Positions 34,700 to 49,863 of a stretch of DNA of 64,000 nt are shown here, one piece after another; within the stretch, counting starts at the first letter, position 1, and the number at the start of each line of letters is the position of its first letter. Under the pieces are notes generated by a model. It was not told the DNA's origin, ran no database searches, and saw only the letters and a list, made by a program, of their open reading frames with translations. The position numbers and the translations under genes were made by a program. Source of the DNA: Bacillota bacterium (GTDB lineage: Bacteria; Bacillota; Sulfobacillia; Sulfobacillales; Sulfobacillaceae); the NCBI GenBank assembly GCA_021821465.1, contig JAKACM010000011.1:1-64000 (forward strand). The letters run 5' to 3'.

Positions 34700-35620
34700 T
34701 TAGATCACCTCGATGGAAAAGGGAACAAAAGTTCTCGTCACCTGAAATCCGTGACGCAGATACATAAAATAGGCTGGAATGCCTTCGTCACAATGCAAAA
34801 AATAGGCTTGAGGCACATCATAGGTTTTCATATAGCGTAATGTATAATCAAGCAGTCGCCCTCCCCAACCTTGACCCCGCAAGGCGTTTACCACACCAAT
34901 CGGTCCTAAGCGGCCCAGGGGTTGATCATATCCGCCCACTACGCTGAGACCCAAAACATGCCGATTGGAAAAAATCCCGAGCACACGACTGGGCGTGAGA
35001 TCCGCCCGCCATGTTTCCCGCAGGGCTCTCACCCATCCGGGCCCAAAATGCTCTTCAGCCGTTTGTATCGCCTCCGCTCGCATATAGGGTGGGATTATAC
35101 CCATCATCAAGTCTTGGGCGGGAGATTTGCCCCCACTGTCATCATCCAGACCCATCACGTCATCTAACGAACGCATCATAGCCATAATGGATGGCAAAGG
35201 CTGCGCTCCCACCACTTGATTCAGCCAGTCCCAAGCTCCCGGATAGGCAATGCGATCAATGCCGGGAATAAAAACCGGGGGTAAGATCCCATCAAAAAGC
35301 ACGTGCTTGACCCCTTGGTCACGTAAAAGCACGTGGACATGGTTCCACAACAAACGGCCCAACCCCTTCTTCTGCCAAGGCCGGTGTATGGCCACGGCGC
35401 CCACGTGGCAAGTCTGGTCGAAGATGCGGGAAAGTACTATAAATCCCCGCACTTCTTTCTCTTGGGTTACCACCCACCACGAGTGAGGTGTGATATAGGG
35501 GTCGGTCAGCACATCACGGACAAAACGTTCCTCTCCCATCCAGTCTCGCGACAACTCGTCTGCCCAAATGTGGGAAATGGCCGTGAAGTCTTTCGGTGTC
35601 GCTTCTCTCACGGTTGTCAT
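34700..35620 (-). CDS. tandem GNAT N-acetyltransferase
   Basis: A 306-residue protein with two GNAT acetyltransferase units. The first (residues 1-110) has VGAVAIHRPWQKKGLGRLLWNHV, the acetyl-CoA motif R/Q-x-x-G-x-G/A. The second (about 165-300) has IGVVNALRGQGWGGRLLDYTL. The substrate is unknown; in this cluster an amino sugar or a peptide amine is plausible. Its ATG overlaps the stop of the ROK regulator (ATGA), making it the last gene of the nine-gene cluster. The long linker between units has a D/G-rich turn. Confidence 0.82.
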   Translation of the reverse strand: MTTVREATPKDFTAISHIWADELSRDWMGEERFVRDVLTDPYITPHSWWVVTQEKEVRGFIVLSRIFDQTCHVGAVAIHRPWQKKGLGRLLWNHVHVLLRDQGVKHVLFDGILPPVFIPGIDRIAYPGAWDWLNQVVGAQPLPSIMAMMRSLDDVMGLDDDSGGKSPAQDLMMGIIPPYMRAEAIQTAEEHFGPGWVRALRETWRADLTPSRVLGIFSNRHVLGLSVVGGYDQPLGRLGPIGVVNALRGQGWGGRLLDYTLRYMKTYDVPQAYFLHCDEGIPAYFMYLRHGFQVTRTFVPFSIEVI

Positions 35621-36825
35621 GGTTGATCCTCAGTCCGAGACGCCATCACACTCGAAGGTATAGAAGTCTCTAATGAGGCCCCGTGGCCATAAACCCATTC
35701 TTCTAAACCAATGGCGCTTGCCCCGAGCAATCCGACTGCGGGGCCGAAGGATGAAGGCACGACTTGCACGAGTGGGGTTTGCCAATACCGAATTCGCTCC
35801 CTCACCAGCTTCATCACCGAAGATTCTAAGATGGGCCACGCTTGATCCAACCAACCCCCCACAACAATCGTGGACGGATTGTAAATATTGACCAGGCTGA
35901 CCAAGGCCGTCGCGAGTATTTCTTCCAATTCCTTGCGAATTTCCGAAGAGATCTGACTCAGTGCCGACGGAATGTTCTCTGGGCGACTCACCCCCAAAAG
36001 CGACAAGATGCGCTGCTGATTGAGATAAACCTCCAAGCATCCGCGATTCCCGCACCAACACTGATCCCCTTGCCAATTAATGCTCACATGGCCGAGTTCT
36101 CCGCCTACTCCACGACTGCCCCGGAAAATGGCACCATTCGCGATGACACCCAATCCGGTGCCCCATCCTGCATAGAGAAAGGCCAACCATGACGTCGTTG
36201 TGTGAGGTCCGAATAAAATCTCGGCTAAGGCCATGCCCCGTGCGTTATTGTCAATAATCACCGGATATCCGGTCAAGCGGTGCAAGGTGTTTCCCCAGTC
36301 AATATTCTCCCATTGATAAGGCCAGGATGCGTAAACCATACCACGTTCCGCATCCACGATGCCCAAAGAACCCACACTGATGCCCAAGACACTTTGGGCT
36401 TGAAGGGGCTCTGCCACCAGTGCCGAGACCATCCGGGCAATATCCTCGGCCAACTGAGACGGTCTGGGAAACTCGGCTTCGTCCCAACTCAGTTCGCTTT
36501 CCGCGGCAATGGTCCCGTTGAGGCGACAAAGTCCCACGGAGACCCCCTGACGGTGCATATGAATGGCCAGAATGCGATAATAATCGGGACGGATGCAAAG
36601 CCCAATGGATTTTCTGCCGGCGCTCCCAATCGAGTCCAAGGTGCCCGTTTCTTCGATCCACCTGTCTTCCATCAATCTATGGGTAATGTTGGAAATGGAT
36701 GCGGGCGTGAGGCGGGTGCGCTCTGCCAATTTAGCTCGGGATATCTCGGGATTTTGCAAAATCAGCCGTAAGATTAAGGCGCGATTTTGCCGGTGAGCAC
36801 TGGAAATATTGATGCCCCAGCTCAT
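35617..36825 (-). CDS. ROK family transcriptional repressor (NagC/XylR type)
   Basis: A 402-residue regulator. Residues 10-70 are a winged helix-turn-helix (RALILRLILQNPEISRAKLAERTRLTPASISNITHRLM). The rest is a ROK sugar-kinase-like domain with the zinc motif CWCGNRGC and the IVVGGWLDQA stretch. ROK repressors sense sugars such as N-acetylglucosamine or its phosphates. The gene sits between murQ and the GNAT gene: its ATG overlaps the TAA of the upstream fusion by one base, and its stop overlaps the next start. It is the likely regulator of the cluster through the AT-rich motifs at 39715-39733 and 46030-46048. Confidence 0.9.
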   Translation of the reverse strand: MSWGINISSAHRQNRALILRLILQNPEISRAKLAERTRLTPASISNITHRLMEDRWIEETGTLDSIGSAGRKSIGLCIRPDYYRILAIHMHRQGVSVGLCRLNGTIAAESELSWDEAEFPRPSQLAEDIARMVSALVAEPLQAQSVLGISVGSLGIVDAERGMVYASWPYQWENIDWGNTLHRLTGYPVIIDNNARGMALAEILFGPHTTTSWLAFLYAGWGTGLGVIANGAIFRGSRGVGGELGHVSINWQGDQCWCGNRGCLEVYLNQQRILSLLGVSRPENIPSALSQISSEIRKELEEILATALVSLVNIYNPSTIVVGGWLDQAWPILESSVMKLVRERIRYWQTPLVQVVPSSFGPAVGLLGASAIGLEEWVYGHGASLETSIPSSVMASRTEDQP

Positions 36826-38747
36826 TACGGCGCCTCCTTTGGCAGGATTTGACGGATCACGGCAGCAACCGAACCGTATTGCCGCAATAAGTCAACCGCT
36901 CGCTCATGCTCGACTTGCAACCGGTTCATGACAATAGCTTCAGGCAATTGTCCCTGCGCCTTATGCAACCAGTCTTGAGCCTCACGGCGGGATTTCCCGG
37001 TAGCTAGCATAAAGACCCGTATGGCCCGTTCCTGCAATTTTTGATTGGTCGCTGCGAAATCCACCATCAAATTATCATAACTTTTGCCTAGCCGGATCAT
37101 CGCCACCGTGGAAATCATATTGAGAATGACTTTTTCGCTGGTTCCTGCCTTGAGACGAGTCGACCCGACCAAAATTTCCGGTCCGCTGTCGACAAAAATC
37201 GTCACGTCGGCCTTCCGGGCGGCCTCAGTGCCCAGGTTATTCACGATCACGGCACTATGGGCTCCTTGTCGCTTGGCTTCTTCAAGAGCCCCCAGAACAT
37301 AGGGGGTATCGCCATGAGCACTCAGGCCAATGACGACGTCTTGGTTACTTACCGAGGAGTCGACAATATCTTTTTGGCCCTGAGGCCAATCGTCCTCCAC
37401 ACCTTCGCGGGCTTTTTTGATGGCCGGGTCGCCACCGGCCATCAAACCTTGCACGAGAGTGGGATCAACCCCAAAAGTGGGGGGCAATTCGACGGCATCC
37501 ACAACACCGGCACGTCCCGCAGAACCTGCCCCCACGTAAAATATGCGGTGATGGCCCCTAATGGCTTCAACCACCCAGTGAATGACCTGTTCGATCTGAG
37601 AAAAGGCCCGGCTTACGGCCAAAAGAGAACGGGTCTCTTCCTGAATCCATGCCTGCAAAATGTCTTGGGTTGAACAAGATTCCAACCACCGGAGATGCTC
37701 ACCCGGATGAGGCCATTCCGTGGCATAGTGTGACGAAGCCGGGGATCTCGAATTGTCCGTATCGAGACGCCATGGGATCCGCCCCGTCCATCGATCTGTT
37801 CCCGCAAGCTTACGGACTAACGCTTCCCAGCTAAGGGGATGGTCATCAAATAGAAGAATTTTAAGGGCATGTCGGGGAGCTTGGGCAATCACCTTAGGAT
37901 CGCGAAATCCGATCACCACCGAACGTTCATCATCAGATGAAGGCAGGGCATCAAGATAAACCCGAAAGTCTCGTCCCCCTCCCCCTGCATCATCATTGCC
38001 TCCTAATGTAACCATGTGCCGATTCCACATCTCTCCGAGAGGATGGGTCGAAAAGAACCCCGCCTTCAACATCAGGGTGTCAACAAATCTCAGAGGCAGA
38101 ATTCCGGGGTCATCGACCAAAACAATGCTCTCATTGCGCAATGAAGCCAACCTTCCACCCAGTCTCGGATCGAATAAGGGGTGATTCGAACGTGGGGGAT
38201 CGGGCTGTCCCGAAGCTTCTTCGAGATCCGAGTGGATCCAAGTCGCCTCCCATCCGTCTCGGGCTCTGTCTTGAGGAACGACCCGCCTGCCATCATCACA
38301 CTGCCAGATCTGCTTAAGAGGATCCGAAACCCAGGCACTGCGGACCCCCACGCGCCGGAATCCCTCTTGAACCCAACACCGCAGCCGAGATCCGATCCAA
38401 GGCAGGCTCCCGTCACTCATTAAACCCAAAGGGTGCCCCCAGACCCCCTCCACCCCCTGTTGTTTCAAACGTTTTCCCACGGCCATCGCCAAATCTTGCG
38501 CCAGACTCAATTGCCCGGCAGCCGCCATCATTCCCGGATTCGGCCAGAATTCATCGTTCGCCATCCACCGAGAGAGAAGAGATTCTGACACCCAGAGTCC
38601 CGGGGGCAAGAACAACTCCGCTCCTTGGGTGCCAGCAAGGTAACTCACCACCGAAACGATCTCCCAATTGTCACTCACAGACAATCCCGGGTGATTCGGG
38701 AAGGGTCCCAATATGACACGTAAGGGACGGAAGCTCACGATCTCCAT
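36825..38747 (-). CDS. murQ: fusion of a reduced GH3-like region and N-acetylmuramic acid 6-phosphate etherase (MurQ)
   Basis: A 640-residue protein, about twice the size of MurQ. Residues 345-640 are a full MurQ: SIS fold with YVGAGSAGRAGVVDAVELPPTFG, catalytic Glu in VVDAVELPP (E420) and the later GVEDD (E451), which cleave the lactyl ether of MurNAc-6-P to give GlcNAc-6-P. Residues 1-330 look like a shrunken GH3/NagZ protein: residues 70-110 resemble a barrel helix and strand, SLRNESIVLVDDPGILPL (about 202-219) matches the start of the GH3 C-terminal domain, and VVIGFRDP...GRIPWRL (277-327) its end. No KHFPG motif is seen, so hydrolase activity is doubtful. The start overlaps the upstream gene by 13 bases. 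Confidence 0.85.
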   Translation of the reverse strand: MEIVSFRPLRVILGPFPNHPGLSVSDNWEIVSVVSYLAGTQGAELFLPPGLWVSESLLSRWMANDEFWPNPGMMAAAGQLSLAQDLAMAVGKRLKQQGVEGVWGHPLGLMSDGSLPWIGSRLRCWVQEGFRRVGVRSAWVSDPLKQIWQCDDGRRVVPQDRARDGWEATWIHSDLEEASGQPDPPRSNHPLFDPRLGGRLASLRNESIVLVDDPGILPLRFVDTLMLKAGFFSTHPLGEMWNRHMVTLGGNDDAGGGGRDFRVYLDALPSSDDERSVVIGFRDPKVIAQAPRHALKILLFDDHPLSWEALVRKLAGTDRWTGRIPWRLDTDNSRSPASSHYATEWPHPGEHLRWLESCSTQDILQAWIQEETRSLLAVSRAFSQIEQVIHWVVEAIRGHHRIFYVGAGSAGRAGVVDAVELPPTFGVDPTLVQGLMAGGDPAIKKAREGVEDDWPQGQKDIVDSSVSNQDVVIGLSAHGDTPYVLGALEEAKRQGAHSAVIVNNLGTEAARKADVTIFVDSGPEILVGSTRLKAGTSEKVILNMISTVAMIRLGKSYDNLMVDFAATNQKLQERAIRVFMLATGKSRREAQDWLHKAQGQLPEAIVMNRLQVEHERAVDLLRQYGSVAAVIRQILPKEAP

Positions 38748-39697
38748 TCCACCTTTCGGCCATAAAGTGCGTGAGCTCCATTATCCTTCGCCGCTTCATA
38801 ATATAAAAACAGTCCCGCGGGAGTCCTCACCGGAGACACGTAACGCAATGATCCATAGGACGATGTAATCCAAGGATTGGGTGACGGAATTTTGTAAAAG
38901 GTACGCAGATCGGCCGAGAGAGCCAATCCCACTCGTTCCTCATAGTTTTCCTCGACATGAGCGGCCCCATCATAAAATGCGAGGTAAAGATTTCCCCAGG
39001 GAATAATCCCCGAAATGCGCGAGACGAGCGCATCCCATCCGTCAGAGGAGGATGCCAATACCTCTCCCACCCATCTGTGTCGTTCGCCCCCTGTCGAGAC
39101 GGCCAACCCGGTGTGCGATCTCACCGCGCCTGTGGTAAAAACATCGGCTCCGGTGTGTAAAGTCGACACTTCTTGGCGCGTCACGAGTTCGAGGGGGGCA
39201 TAGCTCACGAACATGAAGCTTAGGGGTCCCACCGAGAAGACGACCGGATCCTTCACGGCATGAGCCGGGCCCCCTGTGGTATCTAATTCCACTTCCCGGT
39301 TGACTGTCATCAATTCCGAGACCTTAGGAGCGGAAATGCGATCAATTTGCCATTGCCGACTCTCACCATGCACATAACTAAGAAACAAATGCCAGAGACC
39401 TTGGCGAAACACGAGACACCCCCGTTCAATGGACGGAGAATCCAACTCCTCTTGCGTTACGCGCCAAATATCGTGGAAAGTATACCCGTCGGAACTTTCG
39501 GCAATACGAGCTTCATATCCGCGTCCTAAGCCGCGCGGTTTGCGTAACCGATAGTAAAGATAAATGACGTCTCGCACAGAATCGTATGCCGCGGCCGGAG
39601 CCCCCGCCCAGTATCCGGCTTCATTGATCGGGGTATCCCGAACCAAAAATTCTTCACCCTCTCGGATCCAGTCCACTTGAGTGTTTAACAACACCAC
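38735..39697 (-). CDS. beta-propeller glycosidase-like protein (GH43/GH130-like)
   Basis: A roughly 320-residue protein whose repeated strand pattern fits a five-bladed propeller. Typical pieces are YDSVRDVIYLYYRLRKP, IAESSDGYTFHDIWRV and GCLVFRQGLWHLFLSYVHG, then later RISGIIPWGNLYLAFYDGAA and RYVSPVRTPAGLFLYYEAA. Such proteins hydrolyse or phosphorolyse glycosides. There is no signal peptide, so it should act in the cytoplasm on imported sugar. Several GTG codons can serve as start; 39697 has the best spacing to TGAGGGAG. The preceding AT-rich gap holds a candidate operator, so transcription may restart here. Specific substrate unknown. Confidence 0.6.
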   Translation of the reverse strand: MVLLNTQVDWIREGEEFLVRDTPINEAGYWAGAPAAAYDSVRDVIYLYYRLRKPRGLGRGYEARIAESSDGYTFHDIWRVTQEELDSPSIERGCLVFRQGLWHLFLSYVHGESRQWQIDRISAPKVSELMTVNREVELDTTGGPAHAVKDPVVFSVGPLSFMFVSYAPLELVTRQEVSTLHTGADVFTTGAVRSHTGLAVSTGGERHRWVGEVLASSSDGWDALVSRISGIIPWGNLYLAFYDGAAHVEENYEERVGLALSADLRTFYKIPSPNPWITSSYGSLRYVSPVRTPAGLFLYYEAAKDNGAHALYGRKVEWRS

Positions 39698-39714
39698 TAT
39701 CACTCCCTCAGTTT

Positions 39715-39733
39715 TAATTAATCAATTTAATTA
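39715..39733. promoter_or_regulatory. candidate ROK operator (internal site)
   Basis: The minus strand reads TAATTAAATTGATTAATTA, a dyad with 7-bp arms TAATTAA/TTAATTA. It lies just upstream of the glycosidase-like gene and matches the site at 46030-46048 in 16 of 19 positions (consensus TAATWAAWTTGATTARTTA). Confidence 0.55.
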
Positions 39734-39748
39734 TATTACAAGTAATTT

Positions 39749-40759
39749 TTAATATCCACTCGTGTTCGCCAATAGCGCCGAGTAAAATTCTTCTCGCAGG
39801 GGCCTAATCCACGGATTATCCATCCTGGGATGGGTGCGGTTGGTGAGAAGCACAGCTACGAGTCGGCGACTCGGAATCACGACCAATGACGTACCGGTAA
39901 ATCCGGTATGTCCAAATGCATCGGAGGGCCAGGGCACACGAGGCAACTCGGGACAACCCGGCAGCATCCAGCCGAGACCTCTTCCCGGAACCACACGCTG
40001 AACCGCTTCTTGAAATGGCAGGTGATCCCAAAGCGACAGCCACCACAGGCCATAGTGCAAAATGCCGGGAGCCGTGGAAAACAATCCGGCGTGTCCGGCT
40101 GCTCTTCCCCATATTGCAACCACTCGGTTTTGCGGTTCACCCTGTATGATATGCTGACGTTCGGGACAATAACGGGTCGCTGCTACGGACAACGCTTGAG
40201 AGTCTATCCGTTCTTGCACTTCGACACACACACCGGCCAATATCTCTTGAACCACGCGCACAAACGGCTTCTCCCAGACTCGTTCAATTATTTGCCCCAA
40301 TAAGAAGTATCCGATGTCACTGTACAGAGCCTCATGTTCACCCTCTGCCACGCTTAGATCTCGAATGTGCCTCCAAATTCCGTCCGGCGTGCGAACAGAT
40401 GGCGGCACAACATCTTCAAATCCCGGCGGCAACCCTGCAGTATGTGATAACAGCGCACGAATTGTTTGATTTCCGACACTCTGGGATAATTCCGGAAGCC
40501 ATTGTCCGGCCGAATCATCTAAGGTCAACCGATGATTCTGACTCGCCACGAGAATCGCCGGCAAGGTCCCTACCACCTTAGTGAGCGAAGCCAAGTCAAA
40601 CCACGTGTCCGGTGTAACACCCTCGCGACCACTGTAAGTAGTGAAACCCACGGCATCGATTTGAATGTGCCCGGCCTCATATATGGCCCATGCGGCTCCA
40701 TAAATGCGTGACGGAACAAATCGTCTCACAATGGATCCCAAGATCTGTGCCAATTCCAT
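39749..40759 (-). CDS. serine hydrolase, beta-lactamase/AmiE-like
   Basis: A 336-residue member of the beta-lactamase (class C-like) serine hydrolase family. The catalytic motif S-x-x-K is SLTK (Ser58, Lys61); YSD at 146-148 is the second motif; an HTGFTG near the end is the K-T-G equivalent. There is no signal peptide. Bacillus AmiE (YbbE), which removes lactate-linked peptides from MurNAc, belongs to this family and is encoded beside murQ, so a similar amidase role is likely. The ribosome site GGGAAGGTGAG overlaps the end of the upstream permease gene (4-base gap). Confidence 0.8.
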   Translation of the reverse strand: MELAQILGSIVRRFVPSRIYGAAWAIYEAGHIQIDAVGFTTYSGREGVTPDTWFDLASLTKVVGTLPAILVASQNHRLTLDDSAGQWLPELSQSVGNQTIRALLSHTAGLPPGFEDVVPPSVRTPDGIWRHIRDLSVAEGEHEALYSDIGYFLLGQIIERVWEKPFVRVVQEILAGVCVEVQERIDSQALSVAATRYCPERQHIIQGEPQNRVVAIWGRAAGHAGLFSTAPGILHYGLWWLSLWDHLPFQEAVQRVVPGRGLGWMLPGCPELPRVPWPSDAFGHTGFTGTSLVVIPSRRLVAVLLTNRTHPRMDNPWIRPLREEFYSALLANTSGY

Positions 40760-40763
40760 AATC

Positions 40764-41660
40764 TCACCTTCCCGACGCGGGATCCCCCGCTTCCCTCAGA
40801 CCATCACCAATAAAGTTCAATGACAATACCGTTAACGTAATCATTACCCCCGGAGCCACCACCGCCATCGGTTGAACCCCCAATGCTTGCTGCGCCGACA
40901 CCAGCATATTGCCCCAAGTGGGAATGGAGGGGGAGATTCCAAATCCCAGAAAATCCAGTGACGCCTCCAAGAGCATGGCCCGTGCCACGGCAAAGGTTAG
41001 GGATACCGTAATGGGGCCCATGGCACTCGGCACCAGATACCTGGAAATAATACGCCCTGTTCCCGCACCGATGGCGTATGCTCCTTCAACCATGGTGGTT
41101 TCCCGGACACTCAAAAAGACCCCCCGGACTATCCGCGCCGTCCCCATCCAACTAAAAGCTCCGATAAACAAGATCATGGAGAGAACATTTAAGCCCGTAT
41201 AAGACGCCAACACAAGCAAAATAAACAGATCCGGAACCGATAACATGAGATCAACCAAACGCATCAAGACCGTATCGACCCATCTTCCGTAGTAGCCGGC
41301 GACTGCTCCGGCGCCGATGCCTATAGTCGTAGACACGGCCGCTGCGGCAAAGGCTACAAATAACGAGACACGTCCGCCGTACACAATCCGACTCAAAATA
41401 TCTTCGCCCAGAGCATTGGTGCCCAGCAGATGATGAGCCGTTCCTATCGGGGCGTAGGACAACACTAAGTTCATGTGATTCGGAGAAACGGGTGTCAAAA
41501 TGGGTGCTGCCACTGCAGATAAAACAATCAGCACAAGGACCAATACGGATATCACGGCCATGCGATTTTTTCGAAACCGTCGAAACCACAAATAGCGCGC
41601 CATCGCCAGATTATCAGTGGTTTCCCCATTCTCGGGACTTTCTAGGGTAAGCATAGCCAT
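40764..41660 (-). CDS. oligopeptide ABC transporter permease, DppC/OppC type
   Basis: A 298-residue membrane permease. It has an N-terminal OppC_N helix (RMAVISVLVLVLIVLSAVAAPIL), the LGTNALGEDILSRIVYGGRVSL motif and five more helices. The coupling motif (EAA loop) is MVEGAYAIGAGTGRIISRYLVP, where an ATPase would dock. It pairs with the DppB-type permease that ends 9 bases upstream. GAGGTG precedes the ATG. The pair should move small peptides or muropeptides inward. Confidence 0.92.
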   Translation of the reverse strand: MAMLTLESPENGETTDNLAMARYLWFRRFRKNRMAVISVLVLVLIVLSAVAAPILTPVSPNHMNLVLSYAPIGTAHHLLGTNALGEDILSRIVYGGRVSLFVAFAAAAVSTTIGIGAGAVAGYYGRWVDTVLMRLVDLMLSVPDLFILLVLASYTGLNVLSMILFIGAFSWMGTARIVRGVFLSVRETTMVEGAYAIGAGTGRIISRYLVPSAMGPITVSLTFAVARAMLLEASLDFLGFGISPSIPTWGNMLVSAQQALGVQPMAVVAPGVMITLTVLSLNFIGDGLREAGDPASGR

Positions 41661-41669
41661 TATGACACC

Positions 41670-42632
41670 TCAATTTCCGTAACTCACGCGAGGATCCATT
41701 ACCGCATAGAGCAAATCGGCTATTAAATTACTCAGCACGATCAATGATGCCGTGAGCATAATCATGGCAATTTCTACCGGGTAATCTTGTGATTGCAATG
41801 CGTCAAAAAACAATCGTCCCACTCCAGGCCAGGAAAACACAATTTCGGTTAACACAGCCCCGGAAAAAAAGAAGGGAATATCCAGTGCAATGACTGTCAA
41901 AAGCGGAATTGCGGCATTACGCAAGGCATGTTTGAATAGCATGCGCACATTGGTAACACCTTTAGCCCGTGCAGTGCGCATGTAATCTTGATGTAATACC
42001 TCTATTAAGCTGGACCGCAGATAACGGCTCCATCCCGCTGCGGACACCCCACCCAAAGTCAAGGACGGGAGCACGAGATGCAACAAATAACTGCCTAAAG
42101 AAGGATTCGAAAAGGAAGATTGTCCTGCAATCGGAAGCCATCCCAAATCCATTCCAAAAATTAGTTGTAAAATGTATCCTAGCCAAAATACCGGCATCGC
42201 CCACACCGCATAAGCCGTAAAGGCTGAGACATAATCCACGGGACTATTGGGCTTGAGTGCACCCATAATCCCCACACCGACTCCCACCGACCCTGCAACG
42301 ACGATCCCTCCTGCCATCAAACTGCTTGTTGCCGCAAGATGGCTTCCGATCATATTAGCAACAGGCAATCCCGTGCTAATAGAGTAACCCCAATGGCCTT
42401 GAATCCACGCGGAACCCCAATCAACATATTGCTGCCATATTGGCAAGTTTAAACCCAAACGAACCTCCATTAAGTGCAGGGTGTGTGCCGTCACATGCGG
42501 ATTACGCGCATAGACTGCCAAGGGACCTCCCGGCGCCAAATGCATCAGGCCAAAAGATGCCACAGAGGTGAGAAAGAGTAACACGATGCTTTGTCCGATT
42601 CGTTTCACCACATAGGTCGTCATCTTTGGCAC
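41670..42632 (-). CDS. oligopeptide ABC transporter permease, DppB/OppB type
   Basis: A 320-residue membrane permease. It starts TYVVKRIGQSIVLLFLTSVASFGLMHLAPG, the standard DppB first helix, and carries the EAA loop DYMRTARAKGVTNVRMLFKHALRNAAIPL and a C-terminal FSWPGVGRLFFDALQSQDYP. The GTG at 42632 directly follows the stop of the binding-protein gene, with an in-frame ATG nine bases on; no clear ribosome site is visible, so expression is probably by translational coupling. Confidence 0.92.
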   Translation of the reverse strand: MPKMTTYVVKRIGQSIVLLFLTSVASFGLMHLAPGGPLAVYARNPHVTAHTLHLMEVRLGLNLPIWQQYVDWGSAWIQGHWGYSISTGLPVANMIGSHLAATSSLMAGGIVVAGSVGVGVGIMGALKPNSPVDYVSAFTAYAVWAMPVFWLGYILQLIFGMDLGWLPIAGQSSFSNPSLGSYLLHLVLPSLTLGGVSAAGWSRYLRSSLIEVLHQDYMRTARAKGVTNVRMLFKHALRNAAIPLLTVIALDIPFFFSGAVLTEIVFSWPGVGRLFFDALQSQDYPVEIAMIMLTASLIVLSNLIADLLYAVMDPRVSYGN

Positions 42633-44279
42633 TCATTTCATGCGCCAATTCTGAAAATTCCAGAACGTCGCAAACGCGTAGGCGTTGGGGTCATAACCTG
42701 TAAGATTCTTATTGGCCAAAGTCAGGCTGTTCCCCCACCATAGGAAAATGTCCGGGGCTTGCTCCGACAATATCCTGTCAACTTGGTGATACAAAGGTGC
42801 CCGTGCGCTCTGAGAAAAGGTCGTAGCCCCTTGCGTTAACAATTTGTTCACCGTCGGGTTATTGTACCGGGCATAATTGCCACCCGCGGGGTTAACTAAC
42901 ACTGAGTTGGCTCCCAGCCAGTGGTAGGAATCGGATTCCGGGTCCGGACCTTGAACCCAAGAAAGCAAAAAAGCATTCAGTCCTGATTTCTGGTACAAAG
43001 GACCCCCTGCAGCCAGCATCGCATTAGGGTCCACGAGACGAATATTGACACTCACTCCGATTTTTCCCCAATCGCTCTTGATAACCCGGGCAATCAAGGA
43101 GTTCTCCGGATCGGTGGACGAAGAGTACAAAGTCACATTCAAGGGTTGGGCATTTTTGGTCATCACGCCGTGCACAACGTGAAAACCGTGAGAGGTTAAG
43201 ATCTGGCGTGCCTTAGTCAAGTCAAATGGATATTTGTGAATACCGGCTGTAGTCCCTTGCCATGAGTTAACGGGTTGGGAGTAGTACGCCACCGTCCCGT
43301 AACCTCCCAGAACCGTTTGGATTAATTGGTGCTTAGGCGTGGCATAATCCAAAGCTTGACGAACGTAAGTGCCCTTAAACAGCCCTTGTTCCACCAACGT
43401 AATATTTTTCCAACTAAGCGTGGAGTTAGTGTAACCTTGGATATTTCGGTGTTGAATCGCAGCTTTATATTGCGTAGCGGTAAGAGGATTGGATGAATCA
43501 ATCAGGTCGATGGCACCCGACTCCAATTGAGCGATGGCCGTTGTAGGGCTGGGGACAATGTCCATCACAACGGAATGAATGTGGGGAGACCCCAGGAAAT
43601 AATGGGGATTCGCTTGGAATTTCAAATATCCACCTTGCACCCATTTGACTAACTCTAAGGGTCCGGTTCCAATCGGATGGCGCGCAAAAGTCGTATCGGA
43701 ACTCAACTTATTCACAGGAACCTTGCCCAAAATATGTTGCGGCAAAATCCGAATGTAGCTCACTGCTTGAAGGAATAAATTTGCGGGCAGGGTATGCTTT
43801 AGGGTAATGTTCACCGTGTTGGAACCACTCGCCGTAATGGACTGCACTTGACTCGATATGATAGGAGGAACGGCCGTCGCAGCCGTGTTCGGGTTAATAT
43901 CAACGCGAAATGTAAAAACCACATCTTTAGAGCTAAAGGGCTTGCCGTCTTGCCAGAGTACATTATGGCGCAGATGAAAGATCCAGGTTTTATGGTTTGC
44001 CGACACGGACCAAGAACTGGCCAAGGATCCTTGAAATCCACCTTTGGGTGTAAAGGACACAAGTCCGTTAAAAATTCCGGATTCCGCATTGACATCGGCC
44101 AAAGTACTGCCAAAAATCGGATTCAGAGTGTTCGGCTCGGTATTTTCGGCCACAACCAATGACGAAGATGTACTTTTTGACCCTGCCGAAGACGTTCCAC
44201 ACCCTCCCACCATTGCAGCCAGACTGAGACCCATGATCCACGCATTTAAAGGCCGAATCCGTCCTGACCTTTTACGCAT
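42633..44279 (-). CDS. oligopeptide ABC transporter substrate-binding lipoprotein
   Basis: A 548-residue SBP family 5 lipoprotein with lipobox MVGGC about 25 residues from the chosen start. It has the family signature WIFHLRHNVLWQDGKPFSSKDVVFTF and the C-terminal LWWGNSLTLANKNLTGYDPN. The start at 44279 (MRKRSGRIRP) is set by AAGGAGC upstream; a frame to 44324 is possible but adds a non-signal leader. This is the receptor of the cluster's transporter. It is a different subtype from the two orphan lipoproteins at 21804 and 48133. A remnant of its 3' end is found at 34384-34517. Confidence 0.9.
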   Translation of the reverse strand: MRKRSGRIRPLNAWIMGLSLAAMVGGCGTSSAGSKSTSSSLVVAENTEPNTLNPIFGSTLADVNAESGIFNGLVSFTPKGGFQGSLASSWSVSANHKTWIFHLRHNVLWQDGKPFSSKDVVFTFRVDINPNTAATAVPPIISSQVQSITASGSNTVNITLKHTLPANLFLQAVSYIRILPQHILGKVPVNKLSSDTTFARHPIGTGPLELVKWVQGGYLKFQANPHYFLGSPHIHSVVMDIVPSPTTAIAQLESGAIDLIDSSNPLTATQYKAAIQHRNIQGYTNSTLSWKNITLVEQGLFKGTYVRQALDYATPKHQLIQTVLGGYGTVAYYSQPVNSWQGTTAGIHKYPFDLTKARQILTSHGFHVVHGVMTKNAQPLNVTLYSSSTDPENSLIARVIKSDWGKIGVSVNIRLVDPNAMLAAGGPLYQKSGLNAFLLSWVQGPDPESDSYHWLGANSVLVNPAGGNYARYNNPTVNKLLTQGATTFSQSARAPLYHQVDRILSEQAPDIFLWWGNSLTLANKNLTGYDPNAYAFATFWNFQNWRMK

Positions 44280-44347
44280 TTTTTGCTTGCTCCTTCCGTT
44301 ACAGTGCATTTTTCTAAGGTCCATTCGTTACCCCGCGCCTGCCGCAA

Positions 44348-46012
44348 TCAGTCTTGCGGCCATACCAACAGCTCATGGCGAATACATCGATTATGCGGGG
44401 ATGTCTGAGACATTTTTGACCGTTCGAAATGAATGGACACGGGATTTCCCACAACATGTTGTCCTTGAAAATCTATTCCTTCAGTATCGTGAATGCCCTC
44501 AACCTCAACATCCATACGATCGCACGAATTGTCGGTCATTTGAAACAAAAGCTCGATAACGGTATTCTCATTTCTCTCGGTGTTAAACGGAAAATGAAAA
44601 CGCAATGAAGCATTTTGCGGGGTCCATAAATCCCCTCCATATTTTGTGGTTTTGAATCCCTGTTCACGGACTCGATAGTGACAGGAGGAATTGAACGCAA
44701 TCGATCCGGAGATCGCATGCAATGCTTGTTGTGTCGGAAAGGCTAGCGAAAGGATATATCGGGTATTTTGTACTCTTTTAAGGTTTGCCGAGACCACCAG
44801 ACTAGGTATCCGATGAGGGATTTTCTCTTGACGAACGGGCCTAGCATCCCACCTAAGCAACAATGAATCAAAGTCCTTGTCGGACGAATAACGCGCCGGT
44901 GTTGTGAGTCCCTCCCACCAAATGGGGGAACTCCAAGCTCGATGGCCATCTTGTTGATGAATATAGACATAACAAAACCCATCGTGAATTTTGTGCCGAC
45001 TTAAATTCACCGTATAGTGCCCGCGATCGGACCCGGGTTCAGCATGCCAAACGAGGTCATTGTTGACGTAAACACTAATGTCATCGATCAGAGCCGTGCC
45101 GGTCACATCGATTGTTAAGATGCCATCGGGTCTTTTTAGAAAGTCTCCCATCACCCCGTCGCCCATAGCCACGTGGAGCAAAATTCTAGCGCCGGTCGTG
45201 GCATATGTATGCCGAGCCCACAATGCCTTCCATAGTGCGTCACGAGTCAATTCCGTCGCATAAACGGCTGTCAGGCCGCGAAAATTGCACGTCACGTCCG
45301 ACAGTACGTCTACGGGCGCCGGGGCCAAGGGATTATGGCCCAAATTTTGGCCCGGGGCCACATTTGGTTTGTGCCGGCCTCCAAAAGTCGGTTGGCCGGG
45401 TCGACAATCGTGCGAATCTCCTCCGCCCAAAAATCCCAAACGATAACCATTTTCTAAGGGTTCTTGGACGTAGCGGCTGGGAAGCACGTTGGAAATGGAC
45501 GTGGCAAAGCCCTGTCCAAATTGCACAAAATCACCCCATAGTGACGTAACTTCAGTTAAGGGCTGATAATCCTTATGGTAGAAAGTCCAATCAATGGGAA
45601 ATTGGGTGACAGCGACATGATGGGGAACGGTCATCACTCGGCCTTGGTAAGGGGCTAAGGCCGACCAGAGTTCTGAGGGAGTTACCCACCCGGTGCCGTC
45701 GCGACTTTGAATCAAGGGTCCTTCATCATCCTGAAAATATACGTTTTGGTGACCGTAGCGGATGTTGGTCCATTCATAACCGAGAAAGCTCACAAATTTT
45801 CCCGCAACGTTAACAGCCTTGGTCGCCTCCTGAACTTGTTCCCATGATGGATTGTCCAAGGCACGATCATGTTCAGTCAGTGATGCAAAATCCAAATGGG
45901 ACACCCGCCGAGCATAATCATAATAAGCATAAGGATCACAGCGGGGACAATCTTTCCAATAACACGGAGACACACTCGCATGGCCATGAATATCGCCAAA
46001 AAATATTTCCAC
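44348..46012 (-). CDS. PHP-domain / DUF3604-like phosphoesterase
   Basis: A 554-residue protein, first gene of the cluster. The N-terminus holds the PHP metal motifs: FGDIHGHASVS (H-x-H), LTEHD (E-H-D), VPHHVAV and GGDSHDCRPG. The C-terminal 230 residues are beta-rich and unrecognised, with many Trp and His. PHP/DUF3604 proteins are metal-dependent phosphoesterases or related hydrolases; a role in processing a wall-derived compound is an inference from context. The start is GTG at 46012 with AAAGGTCGAG upstream, directly below a candidate operator. No signal peptide is seen. Confidence 0.75.
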   Translation of the reverse strand: MEIFFGDIHGHASVSPCYWKDCPRCDPYAYYDYARRVSHLDFASLTEHDRALDNPSWEQVQEATKAVNVAGKFVSFLGYEWTNIRYGHQNVYFQDDEGPLIQSRDGTGWVTPSELWSALAPYQGRVMTVPHHVAVTQFPIDWTFYHKDYQPLTEVTSLWGDFVQFGQGFATSISNVLPSRYVQEPLENGYRLGFLGGGDSHDCRPGQPTFGGRHKPNVAPGQNLGHNPLAPAPVDVLSDVTCNFRGLTAVYATELTRDALWKALWARHTYATTGARILLHVAMGDGVMGDFLKRPDGILTIDVTGTALIDDISVYVNNDLVWHAEPGSDRGHYTVNLSRHKIHDGFCYVYIHQQDGHRAWSSPIWWEGLTTPARYSSDKDFDSLLLRWDARPVRQEKIPHRIPSLVVSANLKRVQNTRYILSLAFPTQQALHAISGSIAFNSSCHYRVREQGFKTTKYGGDLWTPQNASLRFHFPFNTERNENTVIELLFQMTDNSCDRMDVEVEGIHDTEGIDFQGQHVVGNPVSIHFERSKMSQTSPHNRCIRHELLVWPQD

Positions 46013-46029
46013 GACACTCGACCTTTCAT

Positions 46030-46048
46030 TAACTAATCAAATTTATTA
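46030..46048. promoter_or_regulatory. candidate ROK operator (upstream of the cluster)
   Basis: The minus strand reads TAATAAATTTGATTAGTTA, 16 of 19 identical to the site at 39715-39733. It ends 18 bases before the first codon of the cluster, where repressor binding would block transcription. Confidence 0.55.
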
Positions 46049-46509
46049 AATCAAAATCATGTTACCTAAACAGTGTATGATTTGCAAGAGCTTTAAATTT
46101 ATTTGTTCAATTCACTGAATTTGATCATATAGGCTGTGTTGTGGCAGGTAAAGGTTAGTGCTTGGTTTTTACGACAAGAGCAACACAATCCGGATGCCAA
46201 TTGATCCCGGAGACACAGGTGAGTTGCCGGATCAGACTCCGCCCGTGTCCGTCGGCTGAAGCCAATGATCTGAAATCTCCGGACGGCAAACCGGCAGTCC
46301 GGTCGCCTTGAAAGACAGTCCTTTTTTTGACTGAACCGCCGGGATTCAAGAGCCGCACCACAGGATTCCGGGGCCGTGTTGAGTCTCACTCGGGAGTCTT
46401 TCACCTGTGCTGCATAAAATTGCGATGATGCGAACAATTTATCAGTATCGGGTGTCCCACAACACCTTTCGTGACACTCAACGATTACGCGTTTAAGGAG
46501 TCTTGATCC
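46049..46509. other. divergent intergenic region
   Basis: About 460 bases that should hold the promoters of the minus-strand cluster and of the plus-strand phospholipase D-like gene. A long minus-strand frame that crosses it is a shadow. AAGGAG at about 46495 is the ribosome site of the next gene. Confidence 0.4.
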
Positions 46510-47562
46510 ATGATTTTTTCGCAGATTGGTTCCTTCATCCTTTCCGGCGTCTTCAGCCTGATCCTGAGCGCATTTGGTGTCATAGCACCCAGGACGGTAT
46601 TTGCAGCGTTTGCACCCTCGCCCGCCGCGTTTGCTATTCCTATCGTCCCATCTGCTCAGCTTGTATTGGAGCCGCACGCGGGTATCACACCCTGGCTGCG
46701 TCTGATTAGGCAAGCTCGCACCGGCATTGACGTCAATGCCTATCTGATCGACAACCCTGCGATCGCCCAAGCCCTGCGCCAAGCCGGATCCCGCGGCGTG
46801 CCTATTCAGGTGCTGCTGGCTCCCAATCCCTTTGGTGCCACCGATTGGGTTCCCCGCGAGCGGGCACTTCTTTCCACCATTCCCCATATCCTGGTTCGCC
46901 AGCCACCATCCCGATTTATTGGACCCTATACATTTGACCATGCAAAATATTTGGTCATCAACCCTAGCACCCCCTCTGTTCAAGCCCTTCTCGGCAGCGC
47001 CAATTTTACGGTTAGCGCCGTTAACGGGACGAACTTGGAAGCCGATGTCCTTGTCTCCGGAGCTCCGGCCCAAGCCGCCGCGGCGGTCTTTCATGCCGAT
47101 TGGACGGACCATCCCGCCGGGTCCGGTCCCCGGCGCGCATTGATTCTCTCACCCGGATCCCAAAGGACCATCACCACACTGTTGCGCACTCCTGGTCCGA
47201 TCGCCCTTAGTGCCGAAGAATTAGGGAACGATCGGGCATTGGACCAAGCCGTTGCACATGATGGCTCACGGGTTCATTTACTGTTGGCCGCGCCCTTATC
47301 CGCCGGCAGCCGGCGCCGGGCGCAAATGCTCACCCAGGCCGGAGTGCAAGTACGCACGCTCACTCATCCCGTGATACATGCCAAAGTGCTTATCACCACC
47401 ACCCAGGCCTTCGTGGGGTCAGAAAACCTGTCTTATGTTTCCTTAGCTCACAACCGCGAAATGGGTTGTCTCGTTCAAGGACCGGTCCGAACATCCTTAA
47501 TGCATTGGTTCACGCATTATTGGGCGCAGGCCCAGCCGCTCTCTTCTGCGCCCTCGTGGTAA
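46510..47562 (+). CDS. secreted phospholipase D-like protein
   Basis: A 350-residue exported protein. The first 35 residues are a signal (MIFSQIGSFILSGVFSLILSAF, with A-x-A sites after). Two HKD half-motifs are seen: TFDHAKYLVINPS then LLGSANFT (about residues 140-165), and VIHAKVLITTTQAFVGSENLS (about 292-312), so the active site can form in one chain. Members cleave phosphodiesters in lipids or nucleic acids. GC content and codon use are higher than in the neighbours, consistent with separate origin. AAGGAG precedes the ATG. A stand-alone gene. Confidence 0.88.
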   Translation: MIFSQIGSFILSGVFSLILSAFGVIAPRTVFAAFAPSPAAFAIPIVPSAQLVLEPHAGITPWLRLIRQARTGIDVNAYLIDNPAIAQALRQAGSRGVPIQVLLAPNPFGATDWVPRERALLSTIPHILVRQPPSRFIGPYTFDHAKYLVINPSTPSVQALLGSANFTVSAVNGTNLEADVLVSGAPAQAAAAVFHADWTDHPAGSGPRRALILSPGSQRTITTLLRTPGPIALSAEELGNDRALDQAVAHDGSRVHLLLAAPLSAGSRRRAQMLTQAGVQVRTLTHPVIHAKVLITTTQAFVGSENLSYVSLAHNREMGCLVQGPVRTSLMHWFTHYWAQAQPLSSAPSW

Positions 47563-48132
47563 AGGGGGCTGCCCAATTCGCTTCTTAAATCATCACCAAA
47601 CCCTGAAAAATCGCCATCCGCCCATTCCGGGAACATACGTATTGCCGGGCTCGGGCGATCAATTCATTATGGCCAGTCCTTGATTGAGTGTGAGGTGAGG
47701 GGTGATCGTGGAAATGAGCCGTTTGGCATCACGTGTTTGACCCAAAAACATGGGCGCACAAAGTCTCGATGCTCCACGGTAAGTATCCTCAGGCGATAAA
47801 AATGACAGCGCTCACTTAGCTATTTTGGTGCGTGTGACAAATTCGTTAATTCGTTCGGTATTTCCTTAACTCATTGTGATTCTCGTTATGATATTTGGTA
47901 TTATGGTCTATGACGTTCAGCCGATCGGTCCATTAATTTTGGATCACATGAGATATCATTATTTCCCGAAGGGTATTTGCAAGGCCAAGGGTAATTATCG
48001 TCTAAAATGATAGAATTTTCTATTATTTATGAGACTGACATTTCTTCGGCACATACCGGGCGAGAAGATTTATTGGAAAAAATATCAGGCAGGCCCTCAA
48101 TCTTTTCAGCAAACCAACAAGGAGAGGTAACA
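47563..48132. other. intergenic
   Basis: About 570 bases, AT-rich near 47830-48010, with no supported gene. The coding frame of the next gene extends up to 48007 but the extra part is not signal-like. AAGGAGAGG at 48119-48127 marks the true start. Confidence 0.45.
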
Positions 48133-49863
48133 ATGAATAAGAAAGGTGTTAGCGCAGCAAGTCTACTGTTGACTGCTATGATGGTGGCAACCGTGACCGG
48201 ATGCGGATCAGTCAAGTCTGCCTCAAATTCCCCCAACTCTCACAGTACCGTAGTGATTGCACTCCCGCCTCAAGTGTCCCCCAATTGGTTTTTCCCGGTG
48301 ATCTCCAGCGCCGATTATGGCGACGCTAATTTTGAAATGAATGTGATGATGTATGTTCCTCTTGTTCATATCTCGCGGACGGACGGCATTAATTATCAGC
48401 GTTCCTTGGCCTCTAGTATCACAGCTAACAAGACTGGTACGGTCTATACAGTACACTTGAATCCAAAATATCACTGGTCAAACGGAAAACCGGTGACAGC
48501 ACGTGACGTGGTATTTACTTGGAATATCCTCAAGGCTACCAGCACCGGAGCCTCCAACCTGCCTTGGGGCTACGGAGGAGCAGGCTCGGGAGGAATTCCT
48601 GCCCGTTGGGCTAATGTCGTGGCTCAAGGTTCGCACACCGTGGTGGTGACTTTAAATACCCCGTCCAATCCAGAGTGGTTTATCCATAACGGCCTCGGTC
48701 AAATTGTTCCCGTCCCGGCTTCCGTATGGGATAAACATCCACACAATATGGTGCAGGAATTGCAGTTCATCAAATCCGTGGCCGATAGCCCCTCTGCCTC
48801 ACCCTACAAGATTGTTGACGGCCCTTATCATTTCAGCCAAATGGCAGCGAACAACTTCTGGTCTTTCGTGCCCAATCCAAGGTATGCAGGGCATCGATCG
48901 CAGATTCAAAAAGTTATCTTTCAATATGAAACCTCCCCTGGTGCAGAATTCTTGGGATTGAAAACCGGAACAATAGATGTGGGCTATCTGCCGGCATCCA
49001 TGTGGAAGAATCATGCCCAATTAACCAAAGATGTTATGACAACACCCTATTACTTTGGGTTTACGTATCTGGAACCGGATTATAACACCAAGGCCCCAGG
49101 AGGGCTGGGGCCTACGTTCCGCCATTTGTACGTACGCCAAGCCATGGAAATGGGAATCAACCAGCCGGCCATTATCCAATCGTTATTTCATGGCTACGGT
49201 GTCAATGAGACCAACCCTATTCCCCAAAAACCCCAAACGATTTTTTACGATCCTAAGCTTGCCAACCCTCTATACCCGTACAACCCCGCCGCCGGCAAAC
49301 GCTTATTGGAGCAACACGGTTGGCATTTGACCAACGGCGTAATGACCAAAAACGGTGTCTCCCTGAAATTTACTTTGCTCTATATTTCGGGCAGCAATAC
49401 CGTAGCGAATTTGGTTCAGCTGATTAAAAATGACTGGGCGCAGGAAGGTATACAGGTAACTTTGCAACCGGGGCCGTTTGATCAAGTGTTAAGCACTGCC
49501 CAACAAACTGACCCGACAAAATGGGCCATGGCATTTTGGGGAACCAGCAGTTGGACCTATGAACCCGATTATTATCCCACAGGAGGAAGCTTTTACCTGA
49601 CCGGAGCCGGCGCCAATCAGGGCGGTTATAGCAATCCTCAGATGAACACATTAATAAAAAACTCCTATGCACCGGGTTCACCAAGTCAAACACTCAAAGC
49701 ATTGGATGCCTATCAAGCGTATGCCGCGCAACAATTGCCGGTAATTTGGCTACCATACACCCCGGTTTTTGATGAGCACGCTATTAATGTCCATGGCACG
49801 GTTAAAACCTTTAATCCGATTACCACATTCGTCTATCCAAACCTTTGGACAATATCTCCCTGA
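48133..49863 (+). CDS. peptide ABC transporter substrate-binding lipoprotein (orphan)
   Basis: A 576-residue SBP family 5 lipoprotein. Signal MNKKGVSAASLLLTAMMVA with lipobox TVTGC. Family signature YTVHLNPKYHWSNGKPVTARDVVFTWN. It is a close paralogue of the protein at 21804-23522 along its whole length, with shared PQVSPNWFFP, LPWGYGGAGSGGIPARW and the same C-terminal YPNLWT / SPNYWT pattern. No permease or ATPase gene is adjacent. The start is chosen by the ribosome site AAGGAGAGG. It may deliver to permeases elsewhere, or share those at 40764-42632. Confidence 0.9.
   Translation: MNKKGVSAASLLLTAMMVATVTGCGSVKSASNSPNSHSTVVIALPPQVSPNWFFPVISSADYGDANFEMNVMMYVPLVHISRTDGINYQRSLASSITANKTGTVYTVHLNPKYHWSNGKPVTARDVVFTWNILKATSTGASNLPWGYGGAGSGGIPARWANVVAQGSHTVVVTLNTPSNPEWFIHNGLGQIVPVPASVWDKHPHNMVQELQFIKSVADSPSASPYKIVDGPYHFSQMAANNFWSFVPNPRYAGHRSQIQKVIFQYETSPGAEFLGLKTGTIDVGYLPASMWKNHAQLTKDVMTTPYYFGFTYLEPDYNTKAPGGLGPTFRHLYVRQAMEMGINQPAIIQSLFHGYGVNETNPIPQKPQTIFYDPKLANPLYPYNPAAGKRLLEQHGWHLTNGVMTKNGVSLKFTLLYISGSNTVANLVQLIKNDWAQEGIQVTLQPGPFDQVLSTAQQTDPTKWAMAFWGTSSWTYEPDYYPTGGSFYLTGAGANQGGYSNPQMNTLIKNSYAPGSPSQTLKALDAYQAYAAQQLPVIWLPYTPVFDEHAINVHGTVKTFNPITTFVYPNLWTISP

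Follow-up and report, generated by a model that had tools for sequence, protein, structure and literature searches.

A candidate ROK-controlled regulon for muropeptide salvage, split between two contigs, in a member of the Sulfobacillaceae

Introduction

Does a gene block in which a MurQ etherase, an oligopeptide-type ABC importer and a ROK repressor stand side by side serve the recovery of cell wall fragments, and if so, how might these fragments be taken up and broken down? The block lies in a stretch of 64,000 nucleotides, hereafter the window (positions 1 to 64,000 of contig JAKACM010000011.1, assembly GCA_021821465.1; Bacillota, Sulfobacillaceae), and was described in an earlier note, made from the letters alone, as a nine-gene cluster for the salvage of muropeptides and amino sugars. 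We put at about 0.7 the probability that it belongs to a single regulon under ROK control, with one part in the window and the other on a second contig, C197, which would import muropeptides or muro-oligosaccharides through ABC transporters and degrade them inside the cell.

Results

The nine open reading frames announced by the earlier note are present, all on the minus strand at 34700-46012 in the ORF list of the window. Along the block they are spaced by 23, 0, 9, 4, 45, -13, -1 and -4 bases, and the small gaps and overlaps of the proposed single run thus hold, while the idea of one operon is weakened by an operator candidate and a promoter-like -35/-10 pair inside the 45 bases that precede the propeller gene. 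The block is therefore read as probably two transcription units, DUF3604-SBP5-DppB-DppC-serine hydrolase and propeller-MurQ fusion-ROK-GNAT. The promoter-like site, TGGATA-17-TATAAT with 10 of 12 matches (39730..39758, minus strand), overlaps the operator candidate; the promoter scan overall was near chance, with 13 sites found versus 11.2 in shuffles.

Pfam and NCBIfam searches back the families proposed before for the DUF3604, SBP_bac_5, permease (BPD_transp_1), β-lactamase-fold, MurQ, HTH-bearing ROK and GNAT proteins. The first unit opens with a DUF3604/CehA-McbA-like metallohydrolase of the PHP type (44348..46012, 554 aa; Pfam DUF3604 4.4e-24), which reaches 8.9e-19 and 68 bits against NCBIfam CehA_McbA, under the cut-off of 80; a PDB relative at E ≤ 1 was not found, and a directed literature search on the DUF3604/CehA/PHP domain gave no paper. 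It is followed by an oligopeptide-type SBP_bac_5 lipoprotein (42633..44324; Pfam 4.7e-73, lipobox by eye) with AppA (1xoc, 5.2e-54) as top PDB match, a DppB-type permease (41670..42632; BPD_transp_1 5.6e-41), a DppC-type permease (40764..41660; BPD_transp_1 and OppC_N) and a serine hydrolase of the class C β-lactamase fold, AmiE-like by fold (39749..40759; Pfam 2.7e-37). With SLTK at 58, YSD at 146 and HTG at 284, the latter is, by fold and SxxK/YSD/HTG motifs, a putative AmiE-type MurNAc-L-Ala amidase, and a hydrophobic N-terminal segment was absent in a simple Kyte-Doolittle check. Two plus-strand neighbours were noticed by eye, a protein with two HxK-type motifs and the look of the phospholipase D family at 46510-47562, and an SBP5-like lipoprotein at 48007-49863 with no adjacent plus-strand ORF of at least 150 aa up to 53 kb.

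The second unit ends with a ROK repressor (35617..36825; Pfam ROK 1.1e-44, PDB 1z05 2.6e-42), in which Pfam and the 1z05 alignment place both a winged HTH and the ROK domain, and a double GNAT acetyltransferase (34700..35620; two stretches of Pfam Acetyltransf_1). A kinase role for the ROK protein was considered and is unlikely, as the HTH is present and Asn stands where the aligned 1z05 has the Asp of the NDTR motif, which we take to be the kinase base of ROK proteins.

The propeller gene (38735..39703), which heads the second unit, encodes a protein that has no Pfam family match at E ≤ 10 and had been called glycosidase-like, a description with which structure prediction agrees. The AlphaFold model is good (pLDDT 88.9) and has the five-bladed propeller that is a hallmark of the GH43-type clan, with a fold of the GH43/GH117 type; in Foldseek, GH43 and GH117 structures and oligomannan phosphorylases were matched with E down to 3.5e-12 and, among the best 50 matches, TMq of 0.56-0.71. 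These best 50, at 9-14% identity, are GH43, GH117 and GH159 enzymes, mannoside phosphorylases, presumably of GH130, and BT_0996, which we assume to be GH137. A distant relative of the propeller protein in G058, itself a distant member of the class, matches GH43 at 1.2e-5 with 25.3 bits, below the cut-off of 32.2, and the invariant residues are Arg-rich and include Asp, Glu and His. The protein probably acts on a substituent or an unusual linkage of wall fragments, either as a glycosidase or as a phosphorylase.

The next gene (36825..38747) encodes a fusion in which, from NCBIfam, profile comparison and motifs, a degenerate GH3 (NagZ-like) domain of about residues 1-345 precedes a MurQ etherase. 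Of the GH3-like/MurQ fusion proposed earlier, the MurQ half stands, being above the cut-offs of the subfamily models NF003915 (329 bits versus 168) and NF009222 (288.8 versus 255) and below that of the equivalog TIGR00274 (279.6 versus 302); aligned with 4s12 and 4lzj, it keeps two Glu, in ELPPTFG and EGVEDD, presumably E83/E114 of E. coli. For the GH3-like half, a Pfam match was not found (residues 1-343), and KHFPGHG is absent from all seven fused domains examined, that of G058 included, two of which have a lone DTH. Compared with GH3 proteins, the N-terminal half gave a weak profile match (hhalign probability 42% over 56 columns), and among 398 genomes of the phylum the only two matches besides the window's own are both NagZ-type GH3 by motif. 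A model of seven GH3 proteins gave, on the seven fused domains, E-values, computed for a database of these 7 sequences, of 4.3e-14 for G058, 0.0016 for the window and 0.043-0.43 for the other five, and the front of the 840-residue GH3-MurQ fusion of G058 matches Pfam GH3 at 0.0017. These comparisons suggest a dead, long-kept NagZ-like domain that may have a binding or regulatory role. The G058 fusion (L064 1568-4090) is less degenerate than the window's, and the same contig carries MupG. The AlphaFold model of the window's fusion, from 6 sequences, was poor (pLDDT 57.7, pTM 0.35) and was left out of the fold searches. MurQ relatives are found in plasmid records, but in none of 129 does a match span 80% of the fusion, and a second, unfused MurQ lies at L069 9083-10000 (contig C130) beside MFS transporter and inositol-phosphatase-type genes.

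Relatives of the propeller protein occur in 20 of the 154 genomes of the class that were searched, the window's included; a scan of genome contigs returned no relative with a one-protein query and 17 loci with an alignment query. Beyond the window there are 21 propeller matches, and wide stretches were examined for all of them but G124:C88. The propeller gene adjoins the MurQ fusion and the ROK gene in eight genomes including the window's (G000, G108, G109, G121-G124 and G095, where the contig end truncates the ROK gene). The neighbourhood search that the earlier note had suggested as a check and possible refutation thus has a mixed outcome: it finds a conserved propeller-MurQ-ROK core, whereas the window's DUF3604 gene and SBP5-DppBC were not seen with this core in the other seven genomes, within stretches of 4 to 20 kb of which those of G123 and G095 are short contigs of 6.8 kb and 4.1 kb. 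In G121-G124 a β-lactamase-fold hydrolase of 32-33% identity follows the ROK gene directly or one gene on; SBP5, Dpp-type permeases and two oligopeptide-type ATPases are encoded on the core's contig in G121, and a similar SBP5/Dpp-type set on a separate contig in G122. The sole place outside the window, in the loci examined, where DUF3604 relatives neighbour the propeller is L034 5032-15586 of G058, with three of them (28-32% identity) around a propeller-GH3 pair, then a ROK regulator.

Within the same genus, G108 and G109 carry the core in one operon, UP358-SBP1-MalF-MalG-MupG-GH3-phosphodiesterase-propeller-MurQ-ROK-GNAT (Pfam on the G108 copies; MupG_N 1.1e-53), in which UP358, for which a Pfam match was not found, is probably exported. 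A search for MupG led to contig C197 of the window's genome, which carries a copy; there the same seven leading genes stand in the order of G108/G109, with identities to G108 of 84% for UP358, 76% for SBP1, 76 and 77% for the permeases, 63% for MupG, 43% for GH3 and 66% for the phosphodiesterase. As the assembly consists of 199 contigs and has an estimated contamination of 5.1%, it is likely rather than certain that C197 comes from the same cell as the window. MupG is present in six of the eight fusion-bearing genomes, the misses being G123 (63% complete) and G095, and absent from all five same-genus genomes that have no propeller gene, one of them just 61% complete; outside the eight, 12 more genomes of the class carry it as well. 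In all 6 of the separate GH3 proteins that were aligned, KHFPGHG and DSH are conserved, and the cluster GH3 has no hydrophobic N-terminus by a simple Kyte-Doolittle check. As a family assignment, MupG supports the muropeptide reading of the regulon, and the earlier proposal of muropeptide and amino-sugar salvage is strengthened by the occurrence of MupG and a NagZ-type GH3 in the same-genus operons and on C197, together with the matching operator candidate there.

An ATPase gene is absent from the operons of both importers, SBP5-DppBC (window 40764-44324) and SBP1-MalFG (L059 14725-17880). A third related cluster, at L070 8136-18527 (contig C163), comprises SBP5-DppBC, two proteins in the ATPase position, a hydrolase of the β-lactamase fold and a full NagZ-type GH3, with an OrfB/IS605-type gene alongside.

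Whether the two halves answer to one repressor was approached with a matrix of 24 positions, seeded on the palindrome of G108 and trained on eight promoters, none from the window's genome; the training set includes two near-identical G122/G124 pairs, with the promoter of G123 and the second of the G109 copies left out. In the 166 kb of the window's genome that were scanned, the top 4 of 165,729 matrix positions all fall in three promoters, those of the propeller unit, the C197 operon and the DUF3604 gene. Rank 1 (matrix position 39710-39733) corresponds to the operator candidate upstream of the propeller gene (39714..39734, plus strand), rank 3 (position 46030-46053) to that upstream of the DUF3604 gene (46029..46049, plus strand) and rank 4 to a third, weaker candidate known from the matrix only (46090..46113, plus strand), and the C197 match among these four lies at L059 18998-19021. 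The operator proposed in the earlier note, at 46029-46049, is thus retained as a candidate, and the stronger copy is the one at 39714-39734.

Since the three promoters are AT-rich, the columns of the matrix were permuted as a control, 200 times symmetrically and 200 times freely. All four top matches fell in these promoters in 1 symmetric and 2 free runs, and at least three did so in 11 and 12 runs, respectively; as permuted matrices at times regain the same promoters, the matrix is by itself a moderate test. In a cleaner test, the whole 4.96 Mb were searched for the exact G108 site with at most 3 mismatches allowed, which gave two matches, namely in the propeller-unit and the C197 operon promoters, versus 1 match in the genome for the reversed-pattern control. 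A 21-base pattern, two positions of which were relaxed after the window sequence was seen, matches twice in the window versus 0.03 expected from shuffles; genome-wide, the relaxed pattern has 4 matches, 3 of them in these promoters, versus 6 for the reversed control. Taken together, the matrix, permutation, exact-site and relaxed-pattern results make a common ROK operator for the propeller unit and the C197 operon likely. At the DUF3604 promoter, where the candidate has 3 mismatches to the relaxed pattern and more than 3 to the exact G108 site, a ROK operator is plausible.

In a broader reading, the block would serve the catabolism of amino sugars or glycans in general, with MurQ as one of its modules, and DUF3604-SBP5-DppBC, though answering to the same repressor, would take up a peptide or modified sugar that has nothing to do with the wall; it would fit the variation of DUF3604 and SBP5 among genomes and the surroundings of the remaining propeller relatives elsewhere, for example beside a GH38 mannosidase (L037) or near sulfatase-type, oxidoreductase and amidohydrolase genes. 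We consider it unlikely, as MupG, a NagZ-type GH3 and MurQ, co-located in two genomes, are a specific muropeptide combination, and in the window's genome the operator candidate ties the MupG/GH3 and MurQ halves together.

The C197 half also encodes a PF01663 phosphodiesterase whose close relatives (at least 52% over the full length) are confined, among the 154 genomes, to seven of the eight that bear the fusion; elsewhere in the class the best long match is 35%, with short segments up to 53%. All copies lie within propeller-core or C197-type stretches, except that of G123 and, in G122, an additional close copy on a separate contig. Four orthologues all keep the same Asp, Thr and His residues, which are, we assume, the expected metal ligands and nucleophile of the phosphodiesterase superfamily. 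The N-terminal hydrophobicity of the protein is 2.28 versus 1.95 for the SBP5 lipoprotein (Kyte-Doolittle), and the hydrophobic stretch holds an invariant Asp; we infer that the enzyme acts inside the cell.

If this phosphodiesterase exposed MurNAc-6P at the 6-phosphodiester by which a teichoic acid-like polymer is attached, with MupG and MurQ acting next, neither a PTS nor a kinase would be needed. The confinement of its close relatives to fusion genomes and its invariant residues speak for such a pre-phosphorylated route, as do the absence of the PTS_EIIC domain (PF02378) from all 11 genomes searched, with 7 of 14 controls positive, and that of a kinase gene from the cluster itself. The same PF02378 result also speaks for the ABC-importing regulon preferred here. 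The route nevertheless appears unlikely, as PF01663 spans many substrates, G122 has its second copy away from the core, and directed literature searches on a MurNAc-6P/teichoic linkage route gave no paper (a looser search did return some). MurNAc-6P could, moreover, be supplied by a kinase encoded outside the cluster: a BadF-type kinase on contig C156 has the MurNAc/GlcNAc kinase 8zo3 as best PDB match (3e-28), its 69% relatives adjoin a GH4 gene in G108 and G109, and AnmK is present in 10 of 11 genomes. The bold idea that the phosphodiesterase cleaves a MurNAc-borne phosphodiester, such as that of polymer attachment, is if anything slightly more doubtful, and most improbable is the full kinase-free and PTS-free pathway in which polymer-attachment phosphodiesters yield MurNAc-6P, the dead NagZ domain serves as a sensor or tether for the substrate and the propeller is a glycosidase of a new family.

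Discussion

The preferred reading is thus one ROK-controlled regulon for the import and intracellular degradation of muropeptides or muro-oligosaccharides. Gene content, conservation, the split operon, the common motif and the folds were observed directly; the enzymatic roles are all those that we infer from protein families. UP358 and other wall hydrolases would release wall fragments, which two lipoprotein-dependent importers, SBP5-DppBC of the window and SBP1-MalFG of C197, would take up; the SBP5 ligand could instead be ordinary peptides. Inside the cell, the β-lactamase-fold hydrolase would cut the peptide off the lactyl group, the NagZ-type GH3 would cleave off terminal GlcNAc, and the MurK-type kinase, encoded elsewhere, would phosphorylate MurNAc at position 6 (on MurK, see PMC10465942). 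MupG would then cleave MurNAc-6P-GlcNAc and MurQ convert its substrate to GlcNAc-6P and D-lactate, while GNAT may re-acetylate de-N-acetylated sugars, and the ROK protein would repress both window units and the C197 promoter until a sugar ligand binds.

The murQ-murR-murP-amiE-nagZ-ybbC cluster of Bacillus subtilis, as described in PMC5061867, has MurQ, a β-lactamase-fold hydrolase and GH3 in common with the system described here, as well as a repressor within the cluster. According to the same paper, AmiE and NagZ are extracellular in B. subtilis and MurP is a PTS importer, whereas here hydrolase and cluster GH3 have no hydrophobic N-terminus, PF02378 was not found in the genomes searched and the regulator is of the ROK type; propeller, phosphodiesterase, GNAT and MupG are added. 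The closest enzymatic match is mupG-murQ-murP-murR of Staphylococcus aureus, where, according to PMC6262408, MupG and then MurQ act on MurNAc-6P-GlcNAc; import there is by PTS under a MurR-type regulator, in contrast to the ABC importers and ROK protein proposed here. The use of an ABC importer instead of a PTS has a precedent, as YejBEF-YepA of Agrobacterium is such an importer of muropeptides (PMC9790009), a likeness by function and in a Gram-negative organism.

As its steps are known from B. subtilis, S. aureus and Agrobacterium, the system would be a variant of known steps with three uncharacterised parts, the glycosidase-clan propeller, the cluster-specific phosphodiesterase and the MurQ with its fused pseudo-NagZ domain. 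The split of the operon under one operator also means that a neighbourhood search alone can overlook half of a pathway. If the reading is right, an ABC-importing, ROK-regulated and largely intracellular form of Gram-positive wall recycling joins the PTS-based versions of Bacillus and Staphylococcus.
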